Assembly (NCBI RefSeq): GCF_001547525.1
Contig: NZ_CM003768.1
Location: forward strand, 1,736,001 to 1,800,000
Reading direction: 5' to 3'
Source: Burkholderia anthina
Lineage (GTDB): Bacteria > Pseudomonadota > Gammaproteobacteria > Burkholderiales > Burkholderiaceae
Length of the DNA stretch: 64,000 nucleotides
Position 1 is the stretch's first letter. The number at the start of each line of letters is the position of its first letter. Shown one piece after another: positions 34,494 to 48,116 of this stretch. The notes under the pieces are model-generated. The model ran no database searches, was not told the origin of the DNA, and saw nothing but the letters and a program-made list of their open reading frames with translations. A program made the position numbers and the translations under genes.

Positions 34494-34623
34494 GCACGGC
34501 GCGCGGCGTTAAGCGTCCGCCTACAAAAAATCACGGTACGAATCGGCCAACCGGTGTTTAATGCCGGTTTCGGACGGATCGCCCGACCCTTTTATTACAC
34601 GCCATTACAGGCCCAACGCGTTC

Positions 34624-35775
34624 ATGAGCCAGACTACCGCTCCGTTTCTGCCGTTCACCCGCCCCGAGATCGACGAGGAAACCATCCAGGGCGTCGTCGA
34701 CGTGCTGCGCTCGGGCTGGATCACGACCGGCCCGCAGTGCCAGAAATTCGAAGCCGCGCTGTCGGAGTACTGCGGCGGCCGCCCGGTCCGCGCGTTCAAT
34801 TCGGGTACCTGCACGCTCGAGATCGGCCTGCGCATCGCGGGCGTCGGCCCCGGCGACGAGGTGATCACGACGCCGGCGTCGTGGGTCTCGACCAGCAACG
34901 TGATCATCGAAACGGGCGCGACGCCCGTATTCGCGGACATCGATCCCGTCACGCGCAACATCGATCTCGACAAGCTCGAGCAGGCGATCACGCCGCGCAC
35001 GAAGGCGATCGTCCCCGTGTTCCTGTCCGGCCTGCCGGTCGACATGGACCGCCTGTACGCGATCGCCCGCGCGCACAAGCTGCGCGTGATCGAGGATGCC
35101 GCGCAGGCATTCGGCTCGACGTGGAACGGCAAGCGCATCGGCGCGTTCGGCGACCTCGTGTCGTTCAGCTTCCACGCGAACAAGAACCTGACGACGATCG
35201 AAGGCGGCGCGCTCGTGCTGAACGACGAGGACGAAGCCGTGCTCGCGCAGAAGTACCGGCTGCAGGGCATCACGCGCACCGGCTTCGACGGGATGGACTG
35301 CGACGTGCTCGGCGGCAAGTACAACCTGACCGACGTCGCCGCGCGCGTCGGCCTCGGCCAGCTACCGCACCTCGAGCGCTTCACCGCGCAGCGCCGCGCG
35401 CTCGCCCGCGCGTATTTCGCCGCGTTCGACGGCGGCGCGGCCGTGAAGCTCGGCCTCGGCCTGCCGGTCGCCGAATTCGAGAACGGCAACTGGCACATGT
35501 TCCTCGTCACGCTGCCGCTCGAGCGGCTGACGATCACGCGCGCCGAATTCATGGCGCAGATGAAGGAACGCGGCATCGGCACCGGCATCCACTACCCGGC
35601 GATCCATCTTTTCACGCTGTACCGTGCGCGCGGTTTCAAGGAGGGGATGTTCCCCCACGCCGAACGGTATGGCGCGTCGACCGTCACGCTGCCGCTGTTT
35701 ACGCAGATGTCGGAAGGCGACGTGCGTCGCGTGGTCGACGCCGTCAATCAGATTTGCGAACAATACGGAAAATAA
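34624..35775 (+). CDS. arnB: UDP-4-amino-4-deoxy-L-arabinose aminotransferase
   Basis: A 383-residue DegT/DnrJ/EryC1-family PLP enzyme that aminates UDP-4-keto-arabinose with glutamate. The internal aldimine lysine is K187 in FSFHANKNLTT; FLPFTRPEIDEETI and SGWITTGPQCQKFE are ArnB-like. An in-frame ATG at 34561 would add 21 residues, but the 34624 start (MSQTTAPFLPF) matches the family. Neither start has a strong Shine-Dalgarno sequence. Confidence 0.95.
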   Translation: MSQTTAPFLPFTRPEIDEETIQGVVDVLRSGWITTGPQCQKFEAALSEYCGGRPVRAFNSGTCTLEIGLRIAGVGPGDEVITTPASWVSTSNVIIETGATPVFADIDPVTRNIDLDKLEQAITPRTKAIVPVFLSGLPVDMDRLYAIARAHKLRVIEDAAQAFGSTWNGKRIGAFGDLVSFSFHANKNLTTIEGGALVLNDEDEAVLAQKYRLQGITRTGFDGMDCDVLGGKYNLTDVAARVGLGQLPHLERFTAQRRALARAYFAAFDGGAAVKLGLGLPVAEFENGNWHMFLVTLPLERLTITRAEFMAQMKERGIGTGIHYPAIHLFTLYRARGFKEGMFPHAERYGASTVTLPLFTQMSEGDVRRVVDAVNQICEQYGK

Positions 35776-35781
35776 GCGTAC

Positions 35782-36834
35782 ATGAGTCACCTTGAAGCAC
35801 GCGCCGGGCATCCGGGCGCCGGGCACCCGGGCGCCGCGCATCCGGACGCTGGCCGGCCCGAAGTCTCGGTCATCATCCCCGTATACAACGAGGAAGACGG
35901 CCTCGCCGCGCTGTTCGCGCGACTGTATCCGGCGCTCGACGCACTCGACACGCCGTACGAAGTGATCCTGATCAACGACGGCAGCCGCGACCGCTCGGCC
36001 GCGATGCTCGCCGATCAGTTCCACGTACGGCCGGACACGACACGCGTCGTGCTGCTCAACGGCAACTACGGCCAGCACATGGCGATCCTCGCGGGCTTCG
36101 CGCAGTCGCGCGGCGAGATCGTCATCACGCTCGACGCCGACCTGCAGAATCCGCCCGAGGAAATCGGCAAGCTGATCGCGAAGATGCGCGAGGGCTACGA
36201 CTACGTCGGCTCGATCCGCAAGCAGCGCCAGGACAGCCTGTGGCGGCGCAAGGCGTCGCAGATGATGAACCGGCTGCGCGAGCGCATCACGCGCATCAAG
36301 ATGACCGACCAGGGCTGCATGCTGCGCGCGTACAGCCGCCGCATCATCGACACGATCAACGTGTGCGGCGAAGTCAACACGTTCATCCCCGCGCTCGCGT
36401 ACACGTTCGCGCAGAACCCGACCGAAATCGAGGTCGCGCACGAGGAACGCTTCGCGGGCCAGTCGAAGTATTCGCTGTACAGCCTGATCCGGCTGAACTT
36501 CGACCTCGTGACGGGCTTCTCGGTCGTGCCGCTGCAGTGGCTGTCGTTCATCGGCGTGATCCTGTCGCTCGGCTCCGCCGCGCTGTTCGTGCTGCTGCTC
36601 GTGCGCCGCTTCATCGTCGGCGCGGAAGTGCAAGGCGTGTTCACGCTGTTCGCGATCACGTTCTTCCTGCTCGGCGTGATCATCTTCGCGCTCGGCCTGC
36701 TCGGCGAATACGTCGGCCGCATCTACCAGCAGGTGCGCGCGCGGCCGCGCTACCTGATCCAGGCCGTGCTCGAGCAGCACGACGGCGTGCCGCCGGTGCC
36801 GGCCGGCGCGAACCATCCGGGAGCCGTGCAATGA
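35782..36834 (+). CDS. arnC: undecaprenyl-phosphate 4-deoxy-4-formamido-L-arabinose transferase
   Basis: A 350-residue GT2 enzyme loading formylated Ara4N onto undecaprenyl phosphate. After a short N-terminal repeat region (GHPGA-GHPGA-AHPDA, residues 9-23) comes VSVIIPVYNEEDGL, then ITLDADLQNPPEEI (the DXD-type metal site). Two C-terminal helices anchor it (about 245-325). It starts 6 nt after arnB, and its stop overlaps the next start (ATGA). Confidence 0.95.
   Translation: MSHLEARAGHPGAGHPGAAHPDAGRPEVSVIIPVYNEEDGLAALFARLYPALDALDTPYEVILINDGSRDRSAAMLADQFHVRPDTTRVVLLNGNYGQHMAILAGFAQSRGEIVITLDADLQNPPEEIGKLIAKMREGYDYVGSIRKQRQDSLWRRKASQMMNRLRERITRIKMTDQGCMLRAYSRRIIDTINVCGEVNTFIPALAYTFAQNPTEIEVAHEERFAGQSKYSLYSLIRLNFDLVTGFSVVPLQWLSFIGVILSLGSAALFVLLLVRRFIVGAEVQGVFTLFAITFFLLGVIIFALGLLGEYVGRIYQQVRARPRYLIQAVLEQHDGVPPVPAGANHPGAVQ
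35806..35850 (+). repeat. Three tandem 15-bp repeats inside arnC
   Basis: Units GGGCATCCGGGCGCC, GGGCACCCGGGCGCC and GCGCATCCGGACGCT encode GHPGA, GHPGA and AHPDA at ArnC residues 9-23, ahead of the catalytic domain. Copy number could vary by slippage without changing frame. Confidence 0.8.
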
Positions 36835-37778
36835 AGCCGCGCGCGGTCGTCTTCGCGTATCACAACGTCGGCGTGCGGTGCCTGCAGGTGCTGCTGGCGC
36901 GCGGCGTCGACGTCGCGCTGGTCGTCACGCACGAAGACAATCCGAACGAGAACATCTGGTTCGGCAGCGTCGCGGCCGTCGCGGCCGAGCACGGCATCCC
37001 GGTGCTCACGCCGGCCGATCCCGCCGATCCGGCGCTGCGCCGCGCGGTGTCCGACGCGCGGCCCGATTTCATCTTCTCGTTCTACTACCGCCACATGCTG
37101 CCGGTGGACCTGCTCGCGATCGCGCCGCGCGGCGCGTACAACATGCACGGTTCGCTGCTGCCGAAATACCGGGGTCGGGTTCCGACCAACTGGGCCGTGC
37201 TGAACGGCGAGACCGAGACCGGCGCGACGCTGCACGAGATGGCCGCCAAGCCCGACGCGGGCGCGATCATCGGCCAGACCGCGGTGCCGATCCTGCCGGA
37301 CGACACGGCCGCGCAGGTATTCGACAAGGTCACCGTGGCCGCCGAGCAGACGCTGTGGCGCGTGCTGCCCGCGCTGCTCGCGGGCGAGGCGCCGCACCTG
37401 CCGAACGATCTCGCGACCGGCAGCTACTACGGCGGGCGCAAGCCCGAGGACGGCCGCATCGACTGGTCGAAGCCGGCCGCGCAGGTCTACAACCTGGTGC
37501 GCGCGGTCGCGCCCCCGTATCCGGGTGCATTCACGGACGTCCACGGCGCACGCTTCGTGATCGCGCGCGCGCGCCTCGCGGCGCCCGGCAGCGCGATGGC
37601 GGCGGCCGCCGCGGATTTGCCGCCCGGCCTGCACGTAAGCGATAATGCGCTATTCGGCGTCTGCGGCGACAGCCGCGCCCTATCCATTCTCGAGCTCCGG
37701 CAACAGCGCGACGGCGGCGAAACCGTCGTGACGCCCGCGGAATTCGCGCAGTTCATTCATTCTTCCCGTCATTCATGA
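36831..37778 (+). CDS. UDP-L-Ara4N formyltransferase (ArnA N-terminal half as a separate protein)
   Basis: A 315-residue 10-formyltetrahydrofolate-dependent formyltransferase equivalent to residues ~1-305 of E. coli ArnA. The catalytic region includes NMHGSLLPKYRGRVPTNWAVLNGE and ETGATLHEMAAKPDAGAIIGQ. It formylates UDP-Ara4N before transfer to the lipid carrier. It overlaps arnC by 4 nt upstream and the decarboxylase gene by 4 nt downstream. In enterobacteria the two activities form one bifunctional ArnA; here they are two translationally coupled genes. Confidence 0.93.
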   Translation: MKPRAVVFAYHNVGVRCLQVLLARGVDVALVVTHEDNPNENIWFGSVAAVAAEHGIPVLTPADPADPALRRAVSDARPDFIFSFYYRHMLPVDLLAIAPRGAYNMHGSLLPKYRGRVPTNWAVLNGETETGATLHEMAAKPDAGAIIGQTAVPILPDDTAAQVFDKVTVAAEQTLWRVLPALLAGEAPHLPNDLATGSYYGGRKPEDGRIDWSKPAAQVYNLVRAVAPPYPGAFTDVHGARFVIARARLAAPGSAMAAAAADLPPGLHVSDNALFGVCGDSRALSILELRQQRDGGETVVTPAEFAQFIHSSRHS

Positions 37779-38830
37779 AAGCAAAAAAAGTCCTGATCCT
37801 GGGTGTGAACGGCTTCATCGGCCATCACCTGTCGAAGCGCATTCTTGAGACCACCGATTGGGAAGTGTTCGGCATGGACATGCAGACCGACCGGCTGGGC
37901 GACCTCGTCAACCACGAGCGGATGCATTTCTTCGAAGGCGACATCACGATCAACAAGGAGTGGGTCGAGTATCACGTGAAGAAGTGCGACGTGATCCTGC
38001 CGCTCGTCGCGATCGCGACGCCGGCCACCTACGTCCAGCAGCCGCTGCGCGTGTTCGAGCTCGACTTCGAGGCGAACCTGCCGATCGTGCGCTCGGCCGT
38101 CAAGTACGGCAAGCACCTCGTGTTCCCGTCGACCTCCGAGGTCTACGGCATGTGCTCGGACGAGCAGTTCGACCCCGATGCCTCCGCGCTCACCTACGGC
38201 CCGATCAACAAGCCGCGCTGGATCTACGCGTGCTCGAAGCAGCTGATGGACCGCGTGATCTGGGGCTACGGGATGGAAGGCCTGAACTTCACGCTGTTCC
38301 GCCCGTTCAACTGGATCGGCCCGGGCCTCGACTCGATCTACACGCCGAAGGAAGGCAGCTCGCGCGTGGTCACGCAGTTCCTCGGCCACATCGTGCGCGG
38401 CGAGAACATCAGCCTCGTCGACGGCGGCTCGCAGAAGCGCGCGTTCACCGACATCGGCGACGGCATCAGCGCGCTGATGAAGATCATCGAGAACAAGGGC
38501 GGCGTCGCGTCGGGCAAGATCTACAACATCGGCAATCCGAAGAACAACTTCTCGGTTCGCGAGCTCGCGCACAAGATGCTCGAACTGGCCGCGGAATTCC
38601 CCGAGTATGCCGATTCGGCCAAGCAGGTGAAGCTCGTCGAAACGACGTCCGGCGCCTACTACGGCAACGGCTACCAGGACGTGCAGAACCGCGTGCCGAA
38701 GATCGACAACACGATGCAGGAGCTCGGCTGGGCGCCGCAAGCGACGTTCGACGACGCGCTGCGCAACATCTTCGAAGCGTATCGCGGCCACGTCGCCGAC
38801 GCGCGCGCGCTCGTCGAACAGCAAGGCTGA
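37775..38830 (+). CDS. UDP-glucuronic acid oxidative decarboxylase (ArnA C-terminal half)
   Basis: A 351-residue extended SDR equivalent to the C-terminal domain of ArnA. The NAD motif GVNGFIGHHL is near the start. The serine/tyrosine/lysine catalytic set lies in PSTSEVYGM and WIYACSKQLMDRVIW, and FRPFNWIGPGLDS is the family signature. It oxidises and decarboxylates UDP-glucuronate to UDP-4-keto-arabinose, the first committed step of the pathway. It overlaps the formyltransferase by ATGA. Confidence 0.95.
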   Translation: MKAKKVLILGVNGFIGHHLSKRILETTDWEVFGMDMQTDRLGDLVNHERMHFFEGDITINKEWVEYHVKKCDVILPLVAIATPATYVQQPLRVFELDFEANLPIVRSAVKYGKHLVFPSTSEVYGMCSDEQFDPDASALTYGPINKPRWIYACSKQLMDRVIWGYGMEGLNFTLFRPFNWIGPGLDSIYTPKEGSSRVVTQFLGHIVRGENISLVDGGSQKRAFTDIGDGISALMKIIENKGGVASGKIYNIGNPKNNFSVRELAHKMLELAAEFPEYADSAKQVKLVETTSGAYYGNGYQDVQNRVPKIDNTMQELGWAPQATFDDALRNIFEAYRGHVADARALVEQQG

Positions 38831-40331: not shown

Positions 40332-40465
40332 CAATGAATGCCAGTTCGCCCCATATTTCTCGTAGCTGCGCCGGTGCCCGTTGCGATGCTTGCCGGCACC
40401 TGACGCGCATCACGACGGCATCAGCCGAGCCGCATGTCCCTGTCGACGGGGCAGCGGCTTTTTTT
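40332..40465 (+). ncRNA. Candidate small RNA (~134 nt) between bcp and phoH
   Basis: A good promoter (40297-40325) and a strong intrinsic terminator (40428-40465) bracket ~134 nt without a credible ORF. An internal hairpin (GGTGCC 40373-40378 with GGCACC 40395-40400) precedes the terminator. It could be an independent sRNA, a bcp 3' UTR fragment, or a leader that attenuates phoH. I cannot assign a known RNA family. Confidence 0.45.
40428..40465 (+). terminator. Rho-independent terminator downstream of bcp
   Basis: AGCCGC pairs with GCGGCT, with an inner CCC/GGG stem, followed by seven T. It lies 116 nt after the bcp stop and 183 nt before phoH. Confidence 0.85.
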
Positions 40466-45692: not shown

Positions 45693-48116
45693 TTACTCGC
45701 CGTAGAAAGTCTGCGCCCCGGCAAAATTGTCGAACTTCGTGTATTGCCCCAGGAACGTGAGCCGAACGGGCCCGATCGGGCCGTTACGCTGCTTGCCGAT
45801 GATGATTTCGGCCGTCCCCTTGTCAGGGCTGTCGGGATTGTAGACCTCATCTCGATAAATGAACAGGATCACATCCGCATCCTGTTCGATTGCGCCCGAT
45901 TCGCGCAAATCCGACATCACCGGCCGCTTGTTCGGGCGCTGTTCGAGGCCGCGGTTCAGCTGCGACAGCGCGATCACCGGCACGTCGAGCTCCTTCGCGA
46001 GGCTCTTCAGCGATCGCGAGATTTCCGAAATTTCGGTCGCGCGGTTCTCGCCCTGCGACGAACCCGACATCAGCTGCAGGTAGTCGACGATGATCAGGCC
46101 GAGCTTGCCGCATTGTCGCGCGAGGCGCCGCGCGCGCGAGCGCAATTCCATCGGATTCAGGCCGCCCGTCTCGTCGATGAAGAGCTGCGCCTCGCTCATC
46201 TTCTGCACCGCGTGCGTCAGCTTCGGCCAATCCTCGTCCGTCAGGCGGCCGGTACGCATCCGGTGCTGGTCGAGCCGGCCGATCGAACCGAGCATACGCA
46301 TCACGAGCTGGGTGCCCGGCATTTCCATCGAGAACACCGCGACCGGCAACCCGTACTCGACCGCGACGTATTCGCCGATGTTCATGGAGAAGGCCGTATT
46401 GTGGGTCACGACGTAATCGTCGGTCACGTACAGCCGCGACGGATGCGAGACCGAAATGCATTGCGTGGCCGTCCGGCGCGTCGGCTCGATGCCGACGATG
46501 ACCGGCATCTTGCGGCGCACACGCCCGCCCGTCAGCCGGTCGCGCTTGCCCTGGAACAGGAACAGGCTCTGCGGATCCGGATGACTGATCGTGCAAACGT
46601 AAGCCGTCGCACCGGCCTCGCGTTCGCCGTCGACCGTGAAGCTCGTCGCCTTTTCGGCAATCTGGCACCATGCACCGAGCGAACGCGCCAGTTCGCGCAC
46701 ATCGCTCGCCAACTGCGCACTGGCGGTCGAATAACGCACCGTCCCCCACGCTTCGACCCAGCCGTCCGTGTCGAGCAGCCCGCGCAACAAATCCAGCCGC
46801 GCGTCCTTGTCCGCATCGAGGTAGAGGCGCGGGATGAACTTGTCGTAGCTCGTCCTCCCCCACACACCGAGCTGCTCGAGAGCAGCCATGAGCGGGTTGG
46901 CGGACGACCGGGCTTCCACGGCCGTCGACGGCCGGCGCTTGATCCGCCAGTCGTACTGGCCCGCGTATTCGAGCTCGAGCGACGCGTCGACGCGCGCGCG
47001 CATCCGGCTCAACGTTTCCTCGGCCTTCACGCTGAAACGCACGGCAGTCCCGCCGAGCGCACCGTCGCCCAGCAGCGCGCCGAGCACCCACGGATCGATC
47101 GGCAGCACCTCGCGATGACCGAACTCGCCGCTCGGCATATCGATCCACAGCCGGTTCCGGTAGCGTTCGCGCGTCAGCAACGTGCGAATCTCCGCGGTCG
47201 ACAGTACGCGCGGCTTTTCCCACTCACGAAAATGGACGCACCACAGGTGCTCGTCGCAGCATTCGGCCGAACGCCCGTCCGAAAAGCGGACCCGATACAC
47301 CTGGCGCTCGCCCTGCGGGTAGATCCCGGTCACGATCGACGCTGCGCCGTCGACCGAAGCAAGTGCATCACCGACCGCCAGCTCACCCATCGGCTTCCAG
47401 CCCGTCAGCGTCCTGACGCGCGCATCGAGCGGCTGGGCCTTACCCATCGACGGTCTTCCGGCCACGATGATCAGCTCGCCGCCGTGCATCCCGGACGTCA
47501 TCCGGTCGAGGTCGACGAAGCCGGTCGGCGTGCCGGTGACGTCGCTCGGGTTCGCGGTGTGGTACAGCGTATCGATGCGCTCGACCACCTGGGTGAGCAG
47601 CGGGCCGATCTCGAGGAAACCCTGGTTGCCGCGCGCGCCCTCCTCGGCGATCGAGAACACCTTCGATTCGGCCTCGTCGAGCAGTTGGCGGACTTCCTTG
47701 CCCTGCGGATTGAAGGCGTCGGCCGAGATCTCGTCGGCGACCGACACCAGCCGGCGCAGCACCGCGCGATCACGCACGATTTCCGCGTAGCGGCGGATGT
47801 TCGCCGCGCTCGGCGTGTTCTGCGCGAGCGCGTTCAGGTACGCGAGCCCGCCGACGTCGTCGGCCTTGCCGGACGTGGTCAGCGCTTCGTACACGGTCAC
47901 GACGTCGGCCGGGCGCGTCGACGCGATCAGGCGGCCGATGTGCTCGTAGATGATCCGGTGGTCGTAGCGGTAGAAGTCGCCCTGCGACAGGAAATCGGCA
48001 ATCCGGTCCCATGCCGCGTTGTCGAGCAACAGGCCGCCGAGCACCGACTGCTCGGCTTCGACCGAATGCGGCGGGACTTTCAGCGATTCGATTTGGGGAT
48101 CTTGCGGCGCGTTCAT
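45693..48116 (-). CDS. dnaB: replicative DNA helicase DnaB precursor containing an intein
   Basis: An 807-codon gene whose exteins (residues 1-226 and 574-807) join to a normal 460-residue DnaB. The N-domain (~15-125) binds primase, and the RecA-like ATPase follows. The Walker A motif GRPSMGKT is split between K226 and the next T by a 347-residue insertion, the site known as DnaB-b, so the helicase cannot bind ATP until protein splicing occurs. Downstream extein segments include VFSMEMPGTQLVMRMLGS, LIIVDYLQLMSG and the arginine-finger region LNRGLEQRPNKRP, all intact. It lies next to rplI-rpsR-priB-rpsF, the usual gene order. Confidence 0.96.
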   Translation of the reverse strand: MNAPQDPQIESLKVPPHSVEAEQSVLGGLLLDNAAWDRIADFLSQGDFYRYDHRIIYEHIGRLIASTRPADVVTVYEALTTSGKADDVGGLAYLNALAQNTPSAANIRRYAEIVRDRAVLRRLVSVADEISADAFNPQGKEVRQLLDEAESKVFSIAEEGARGNQGFLEIGPLLTQVVERIDTLYHTANPSDVTGTPTGFVDLDRMTSGMHGGELIIVAGRPSMGKAQPLDARVRTLTGWKPMGELAVGDALASVDGAASIVTGIYPQGERQVYRVRFSDGRSAECCDEHLWCVHFREWEKPRVLSTAEIRTLLTRERYRNRLWIDMPSGEFGHREVLPIDPWVLGALLGDGALGGTAVRFSVKAEETLSRMRARVDASLELEYAGQYDWRIKRRPSTAVEARSSANPLMAALEQLGVWGRTSYDKFIPRLYLDADKDARLDLLRGLLDTDGWVEAWGTVRYSTASAQLASDVRELARSLGAWCQIAEKATSFTVDGEREAGATAYVCTISHPDPQSLFLFQGKRDRLTGGRVRRKMPVIVGIEPTRRTATQCISVSHPSRLYVTDDYVVTHNTAFSMNIGEYVAVEYGLPVAVFSMEMPGTQLVMRMLGSIGRLDQHRMRTGRLTDEDWPKLTHAVQKMSEAQLFIDETGGLNPMELRSRARRLARQCGKLGLIIVDYLQLMSGSSQGENRATEISEISRSLKSLAKELDVPVIALSQLNRGLEQRPNKRPVMSDLRESGAIEQDADVILFIYRDEVYNPDSPDKGTAEIIIGKQRNGPIGPVRLTFLGQYTKFDNFAGAQTFYGE
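46398..47438 (-). mobile_element. DnaB intein (class 3 type) with LAGLIDADG homing endonuclease
   Basis: A 347-residue in-frame insertion (DnaB residues 227-573). It begins with Ala (AQPLDARVRT) instead of Cys/Ser and ends VVTHN, with Thr as the +1 extein residue. Intein numbering: W66 in DEHLWCV, C327 in TQCISVSHPSRLYV and T345 in VTHN form the Trp-Cys-Thr triad of class 3 inteins, which use the internal block F cysteine as first nucleophile. Residues ~112-250 hold the dodecapeptide motifs LGALLGDG (119-126) and LRGLLDTDG (218-226). The acidic D125 and D225 are present, so the homing nuclease may be active. Its frame and all splicing blocks are intact. Confidence 0.92.

Follow-up and report, generated by a model that had tools for sequence, protein, structure and literature searches.

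A predicted full-length class 3 intein in the Walker A motif of Burkholderia anthina DnaB, and synonymous variation at its target site in intein-free relatives

Class 3 inteins at the P-loop of DnaB

Class 3 inteins are defined by a Trp at position B:12, a Cys at F:4 and a Thr at G:5, the WCT triad (PMC3196547, PMC6195587). Mycobacterial class 3 DnaB inteins (PMC6195587, PMC5222942, PMC7664689) are mini-inteins without an endonuclease and are followed by a +1 Ser; the insertion point within the DnaB P-loop is known as site b (PMC6195587). A further class 3 intein comes from the same host genus as the one studied here, Bvi IcmO of Burkholderia vietnamiensis (PMC5222942); it differs in residing in another host protein encoded by a plasmid gene, in being a mini-intein and in its Cys+1, and a 2016 paper named it as the sole known class 3 intein with this residue. 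Among the relatives collected in this study, a class 3-like intein in gene 2 of Mycobacterium phage Phrappuccino (L308) ends in THN followed by a Cys at +1. Full-length class 3-type inteins with the WCT triad occur in P-loop ATPases of phages (e.g., Xanthomonas phage LucasX DnaB) and match the Burkholderia intein over its full length, and most of the ten phage inteins read have the same junctions, GK before the initial Ala and a terminal THN. The Bce DnaB entries of InBase are presumably the same intein in other Burkholderia strains; a literature search by InBase-style labels found no records of the B. cenocepacia DnaB intein which the original prediction had mentioned.

The locus studied here is located within a 64-kb window, the whole stretch of 64,000 nucleotides of B. 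anthina DNA that was analysed, and comprises the following features:

45693..48116, minus strand: dnaB, encoding the intein-bearing replicative DNA helicase in 807 codons plus stop (frame read, NCBIfam PRK07004)
47439..48116, minus strand: N-extein, DnaB residues 1-226, ending in GRPSMGK (dnaB frame)
46398..47438, minus strand: class 3 intein of 347 residues containing a LAGLIDADG endonuclease (frame, Pfam, PDB matches, model)
45693..46397, minus strand: C-extein, beginning with TAFSMNIGEY, 234 residues and stop (dnaB frame)
47241..47258, minus strand: block B core CDEHLW, residues 61-66 (alignment including a Mycobacterium DnaB intein)
47061..47087, minus strand: LAGLIDADG motif 1, residues 118-126, with D125 (frame and alignments)
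46761..46787, minus strand: LAGLIDADG motif 2, residues 218-226, with D225 (frame and alignments)
46458..46460, minus strand: C327, block F cysteine (F:4), the expected first nucleophile (invariance in alignments)
46398..46412, minus strand: end of block G, VVTHN, residues 343-347, T345 being G:5 (frame and alignment)
47439..47465, minus strand: target site, upstream portion, codons 218-226 of dnaB, VAGRPSMGK (synonymous diversity)
46389..46397, minus strand: target site, downstream portion, codons 227-229 of dnaB, TAF (synonymous diversity; codon 229 unscored)

The original prediction of a 347-residue insertion between K and T of GRPSMGKT proved right to the base: the intein comprises frame residues 227-573 and lies in-frame between K226 and T227 (IVAGRPSMGK/TAFSMNIGEY, the slash marking the insertion point). 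Without it, DnaB has 460 residues, the same length as the intein-free DnaB with an uninterrupted junction that was found in 52/52 empty relatives read from the genus. The product scores 999.7 bits against NCBIfam PRK07004 (cut-off 834) and matches both DnaB Pfam domains strongly. The order of the neighbouring ORFs, which we take to be rpsF-priB-rpsR-rplI-dnaB, is an ordinary chromosomal setting. The insertion thus splits the Walker A motif of DnaB, and on these anatomical grounds the unspliced precursor should be unable to bind ATP normally and inactive as a helicase until spliced.

Elsewhere in the window, the Burkholderia sRNA BcKCsr2 (Rfam RF02883, 139 bits) was identified at 40334-40465 and a small signal recognition particle RNA (Rfam RF00169, 78.6 bits) at 1054-1152 on the minus strand. 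According to Pfam, genes for a DegT aminotransferase, a family 2 glycosyltransferase and an NAD-dependent epimerase lie close together on the same strand at 34561-38830 and resemble a lipid A aminoarabinose (arn) cluster.

The class 3 assignment also held, as all residues of the signature are present. W66, C327 and T345 form the WCT triad, H64 occupies B:10, H346 and N347 form the terminal His-Asn pair and Thr follows at +1, while position 1 is Ala instead of Cys, Ser or Thr, as in all 11 carriers of the genus; the insertion between Lys and Thr of the P-loop corresponds to site b. Block B was placed by alignment with a Mycobacterium DnaB intein, which puts C61 at B:7, H64 at B:10 and W66 at B:12. 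The element had been predicted to be full-length with both LAGLIDADG aspartates intact, and the two motifs that characterize such inteins are indeed present with their catalytic residues, VLGALLGDG at 118-126 (D125) and LRGLLDTDG at 218-226 (D225), within a Pfam LAGLIDADG_3 match of 28.5 bits (cut-off 22.5). The signature residues and both aspartates are kept in 11/11 Burkholderia carriers, and C327 is invariant in these as well as in 19/19 aligned rows, the window included. The best sequence matches in the PDB include two class 3 DnaB inteins, from M. chimaera and M. smegmatis, but also the class 1 intein gp41-1. An AlphaFold model built from the 19-row alignment reached a mean pLDDT of 92.5 and gave structural matches both to PI-SceI and TliVMA, which are full-length, and to the class 3 mini-inteins 6bs8 and 6rix. 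The intein is a further example of an already known type, being full-length, of class 3 and inserted at the same P-loop site as mycobacterial DnaBi1.

With M. smegmatis DnaBi1 it shares the insertion point at site b and Ala1, and with DnaBi1, M. leprae DnaB and M. chimaera DnaB1 it shares the WCT triad and the HINT fold of the splicing part (PDB entries 6bs8, 6rix and 6riy). Unlike the mycobacterial inteins, it has 347 residues, an intact LAGLIDADG domain, a +1 Thr, a Cys instead of Asp at B:7 and no counterpart of Cys48. By analogy with the class 3 mechanism, C327, together with H64 and T345 in a triad like that reported for the M. chimaera intein (PMC7664689), would attack the K226-A1 peptide bond; the N-extein would then pass to T+1 and N347 would cyclise, releasing a continuous DnaB of 460 residues in which the P-loop is restored. 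DnaBi1 has Asp at B:7 and class 1 inteins have Thr; with Cys at this position, the exact chemistry could differ. The LAGLIDADG domain would be expected to cut intein-free dnaB at the codons for GRPSMGKT, with the intein allele as the likely template for repair of the break. Taken together, we put the probability at roughly 0.93 that site b of this DnaB is occupied by a class 3 intein of full length, probably competent for splicing and homing, both activities being predicted.

Distribution, descent and fate of the intein

A search for relatives matched 154 stretches, of which 91 encode a relative and 80 loci were kept. The number of encoded relatives, the well-predicted model and its structural matches argue that the intein is not a chance sequence. 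RPSMGK precedes the insert in 68/80 loci and another P-loop-like GK in 10, with L041 cut to GK and L013 unreadable on the N-terminal side, and THN/T forms the C-terminal junction in 80/80. Close relatives were found in dnaB across the Burkholderiaceae. The original prediction had suggested a comparison with related dnaB genes for empty alleles, and these are common: with one genome per species, 52/65 genomes of the genus have a contiguous empty site, 11/65 carry the intein, 0/11 carriers have the empty site and both were never found in one genome. Two genomes (G025 and G057, the latter 82% complete) have neither. The expected confinement to a few strains was not borne out, as the carriers comprise 11/65 species of the genus and matches occurred in 48/398 genomes of the family, 45 of them full-length with at least 51% identity (27 in a single genus code, g12). 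Matches in the order and phylum amounted to 29/399 and 9/398 genomes, respectively; the four sets overlap, all but the genus are samples from larger groups, and the counts beyond the genus include weak matches to other proteins.

Several relatives deviate from the intein described here. At site b, two DnaB frames of 1261 and 1242 codons (L277 in G875 and L278 in G1033) contain this intein; a profile match indicates another LAGLIDADG-bearing insert farther along each frame, so that both proteins resemble M. smegmatis DnaB in having two inteins. In the 19-row alignment, the distant relatives L037 and L078 lack the catalytic Asp of the second motif (LLDTGG and LLDTAG); hence, decayed endonucleases exist among the relatives. 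In L288 (G934) the ends of the DnaB intein are conserved and the endonuclease is recognisable only in part, so that this intein may be on its way to becoming a mini-intein. In G1160, a frame of 889 codons encodes an additional and divergent DnaB (68% identity; G1160:C31:97479-98177), which may be an intein-bearing helicase of a prophage.

On a gyrB tree of 63 species, omitting G025 and G057, the presence of the intein in 11 carriers required 9 changes; shuffled presence required 10.26 on average, and 166/1000 shuffles were as low or lower. Thus, the intein is about as scattered as random on the host tree. A recent phage or plasmid donor was not found in the collections searched: 423 phage records match, all with <60% identity to the Burkholderia intein, the best full-length match among the best 40 of them reaching 38.7%, and the 26 matching plasmid records also all remain below 60%. 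Broad co-conversion tracts are at most weak, since carriers are only a little closer to each other near the site: third-position distance at codons 227-246 was 0.150 for 35 carrier pairs (G014 and G016 left out) versus 0.188 for 847 empty pairs of like gyrB distance.

It may be asked whether this distribution would result from vertical inheritance and frequent loss of an old insert whose endonuclease is dead and which has not homed recently. Intein and host distances do correlate (Spearman 0.68 for gyrB and 0.80 for the extein), and in two species pairs the inteins show nearly the same similarity as the gyrB genes (0.984 and 0.982 for G029/G030, 0.951 and 0.956 for G026/G043), so that some of the pattern is accounted for by vertical inheritance and loss. 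As an explanation of the whole it is unlikely, as the intein of G051 has diverged from that of G000 with a dS of 0.81, compared to 0.18 for gyrB and 0.30 for the extein, and, also relative to G000, the intein is more diverged than gyrB in G005 (0.38 versus 0.20) and less diverged in G060 (0.21 versus 0.30). In addition, mean pN/pS is 0.23 for the endonuclease part (0.16 and 0.19 for the splicing parts), showing that the endonuclease is under purifying selection, i.e., being kept, with both aspartates retained in 11/11 carriers. Presence off the host tree, one misplaced intein and this selection indicate that the intein is probably an active homing element with inferred cleavage and homing, and its mobility, as originally proposed, is very likely; repeated gain by homing and repeated loss is the simplest reading. 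An insert dead for splicing, with DnaB function supplied from elsewhere, is barely credible: each catalytic residue is kept, and the genome contains one intein match and, by pattern search, no contiguous AGRPSMGKTA site, while DnaB is an essential protein. We found nothing in this case that supports such an insert, although a dead class 3 intein, Arth_1007, has been described (PMC3196547). The preferred explanation of a homing intein thus draws on the residues, the predicted fold, the site, the empty alleles, the patchy presence, one clear incongruence and the purifying selection.

A different reason for the persistence of the intein would be domestication, in which slow or conditional splicing would serve to gate replication under stress, controlled by the chemistry of C327 and perhaps of C61 as its partner, and would be kept for its benefit to the host. 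The gating of replication by redox or temperature that was raised in the original prediction is conjectural. In the class 3 DnaB intein of M. smegmatis, oxidants inhibit splicing by way of a disulphide bond that involves the block F cysteine (PMC6195587), and C61 lies at B:7, where DnaBi1 has Asp62 near Ala1. Translated genome searches identified Cys at this position in 45/45 DnaB-type loci, whereas ten phage relatives, picked among the best 40 of 423 matching records, have Cys (4), Asp (2), Gly (2) or Ala (2), a mixture that speaks against a conserved switch. Cys61 is therefore a mark of the bacterial DnaB lineage and not required in class 3; the 80-locus set is biased at B:7, as one search word contained those cysteines. 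The switch of DnaBi1 is made by Cys48 (PMC6195587), and this partner has no counterpart in the Burkholderia intein, whose only cysteines are residues 60, 61, 67, 258, 282 and 327, with none at residues 1-59 and C61 at a different position. Also, an insert scattered over only 11/65 species is unlike a fixed useful switch. We therefore consider domestication very unlikely; speculatively, Cys61, which adjoins the active site, would be the best candidate for any redox role. The homing intein remains the preferred reading.

Synonymous variation at the target site

The dnaB genes of 52 intein-free Burkholderia were scanned in 12-codon segments, which were ranked by synonymous change per codon. Changes were counted on a tree, each codon was compared with codons of the same amino acid, and only positions with at least 90% of the rows agreeing on the amino acid were considered. 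The segment at the insertion point, codons 218-229 (VAGRPSMGK/TAF), ranked first of 449 with a mean percentile of 0.86 over 11 scored codons. It was also first by codon heterozygosity, on the extein tree and in 20/20 random draws of 30 species, and 0/200000 random codon draws reached its value, under a null that ignores neighbour effects. Raised values extend over codons 218-228, about 33 bases, and are low at 215-217 and 230-231, with codon 214 also high. Most of the peak is on the upstream side of the insertion point, as the best segments of 6 or 8 codons (218-223 or 218-225) end just short of it and those of 10 to 40 codons span it. R221 alone required 25 changes on the tree, and it accounts for 7 of the 8 AGA codons at conserved arginines of the 52 genes. 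AGA is unsafe as a mark of escape, being the commonest codon there in Polynucleobacter-type carriers too (21/34). At codons 222-229, at least one rare codon was present in 1/11 carriers versus 24/52 empty genes, the largest deficit of carriers among all 8-codon segments; the four cuts of this contrast gave permutation values of 0.745, 0.016 (for the cut above), 0.12 and 0.044, and the lower content of rare codons in carriers at the target is suggestive only.

No other gene of the genus that was analysed reached this level. The best segment of gyrB in the same 52 species scored 0.79, below the 0.86 of dnaB; the corresponding values were 0.79 for dnaA (40 of 63 species fetched), 0.78 for a DUF47 gene (59 rows), 0.74 for recA (30 of 64 matching genomes) and 0.64 for rplI (62 rows), the sets other than gyrB including some carriers. 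In genus g20, with 2/39 carriers by frame length, the dnaB target site ranked 92 of 432 (0.60, 30 of 39 genomes read), with a glycine codon at 0.95 and an arginine codon at 0.97. In genus g3, where none of 60 genomes had a frame of intein-bearing length (one had 548 codons and one was cut to 187), it ranked 77 of 432 (0.57, 30 of 60 genomes read), with single high codons for Ala (0.99) and Pro (0.97). Polynucleobacter-type carriers ranked 247 of 427 (0.50) in 34 of 37 loci after removal of near-duplicates, the 37 comprising 19 named Polynucleobacter, 2 uncultured and 16 of genus code g12, with other such loci left out. Relatives of G411 are a weak control, in which the site ranked 83 of 158 (0.49) near saturation, with 11 of 30 loci readable, and those of G737 are of no use as a control, 0/40 having reached the set threshold. 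Intrinsic variability of P-loops does not hold as a general rule behind the peak, as the dnaA P-loop of Burkholderia is low (rank 343 of 355, 0.35); such variability may still play a part, given some codons of the control genera and the recA P-loop, which is the one moderately high control among other P-loops (mean percentile 0.68; of 338 segments it ranks 23 by percentile, and 55 when ranked by excess).

The peak fits either an escape from homing through silent changes or scarring by repeated gains and losses, since it has about the size of a LAGLIDADG target, lies at the target and occurs in a genus with the intein in circulation, while two sister genera lack it. On the escape reading, silent changes may have accumulated in the 11-12 target codons of intein-free Burkholderia, at which the Walker A residues of this essential protein are fixed, and would spare dnaB from cutting by the endonuclease. 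We regard this reading as possible but doubtful. For homing endonucleases, a tolerance of single synonymous changes has been reported (PMC3024317), and those of haloarchaea cut targets with several mostly synonymous differences, resistance to invasion there coming from amino acid change (PMC10643990). The carriers' own flanks are varied, the peak occurs in one genus only among the dnaB sets compared, and the single high codons in the control genera lower the probability of escape slightly. A full-text search, judged on titles and abstract starts and with subscription literature mostly outside its reach, found no description of silent or evolved resistance of intein targets.

If silent escape is true, Burkholderia dnaB would document, in nature, how silent changes confer resistance to a selfish element, and if the peak was caused by the endonuclease, it would show how a host resists an element aimed at residues that the host cannot change. 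The occupied and exactly empty sister alleles within one genus are good material for studies of homing in bacteria.
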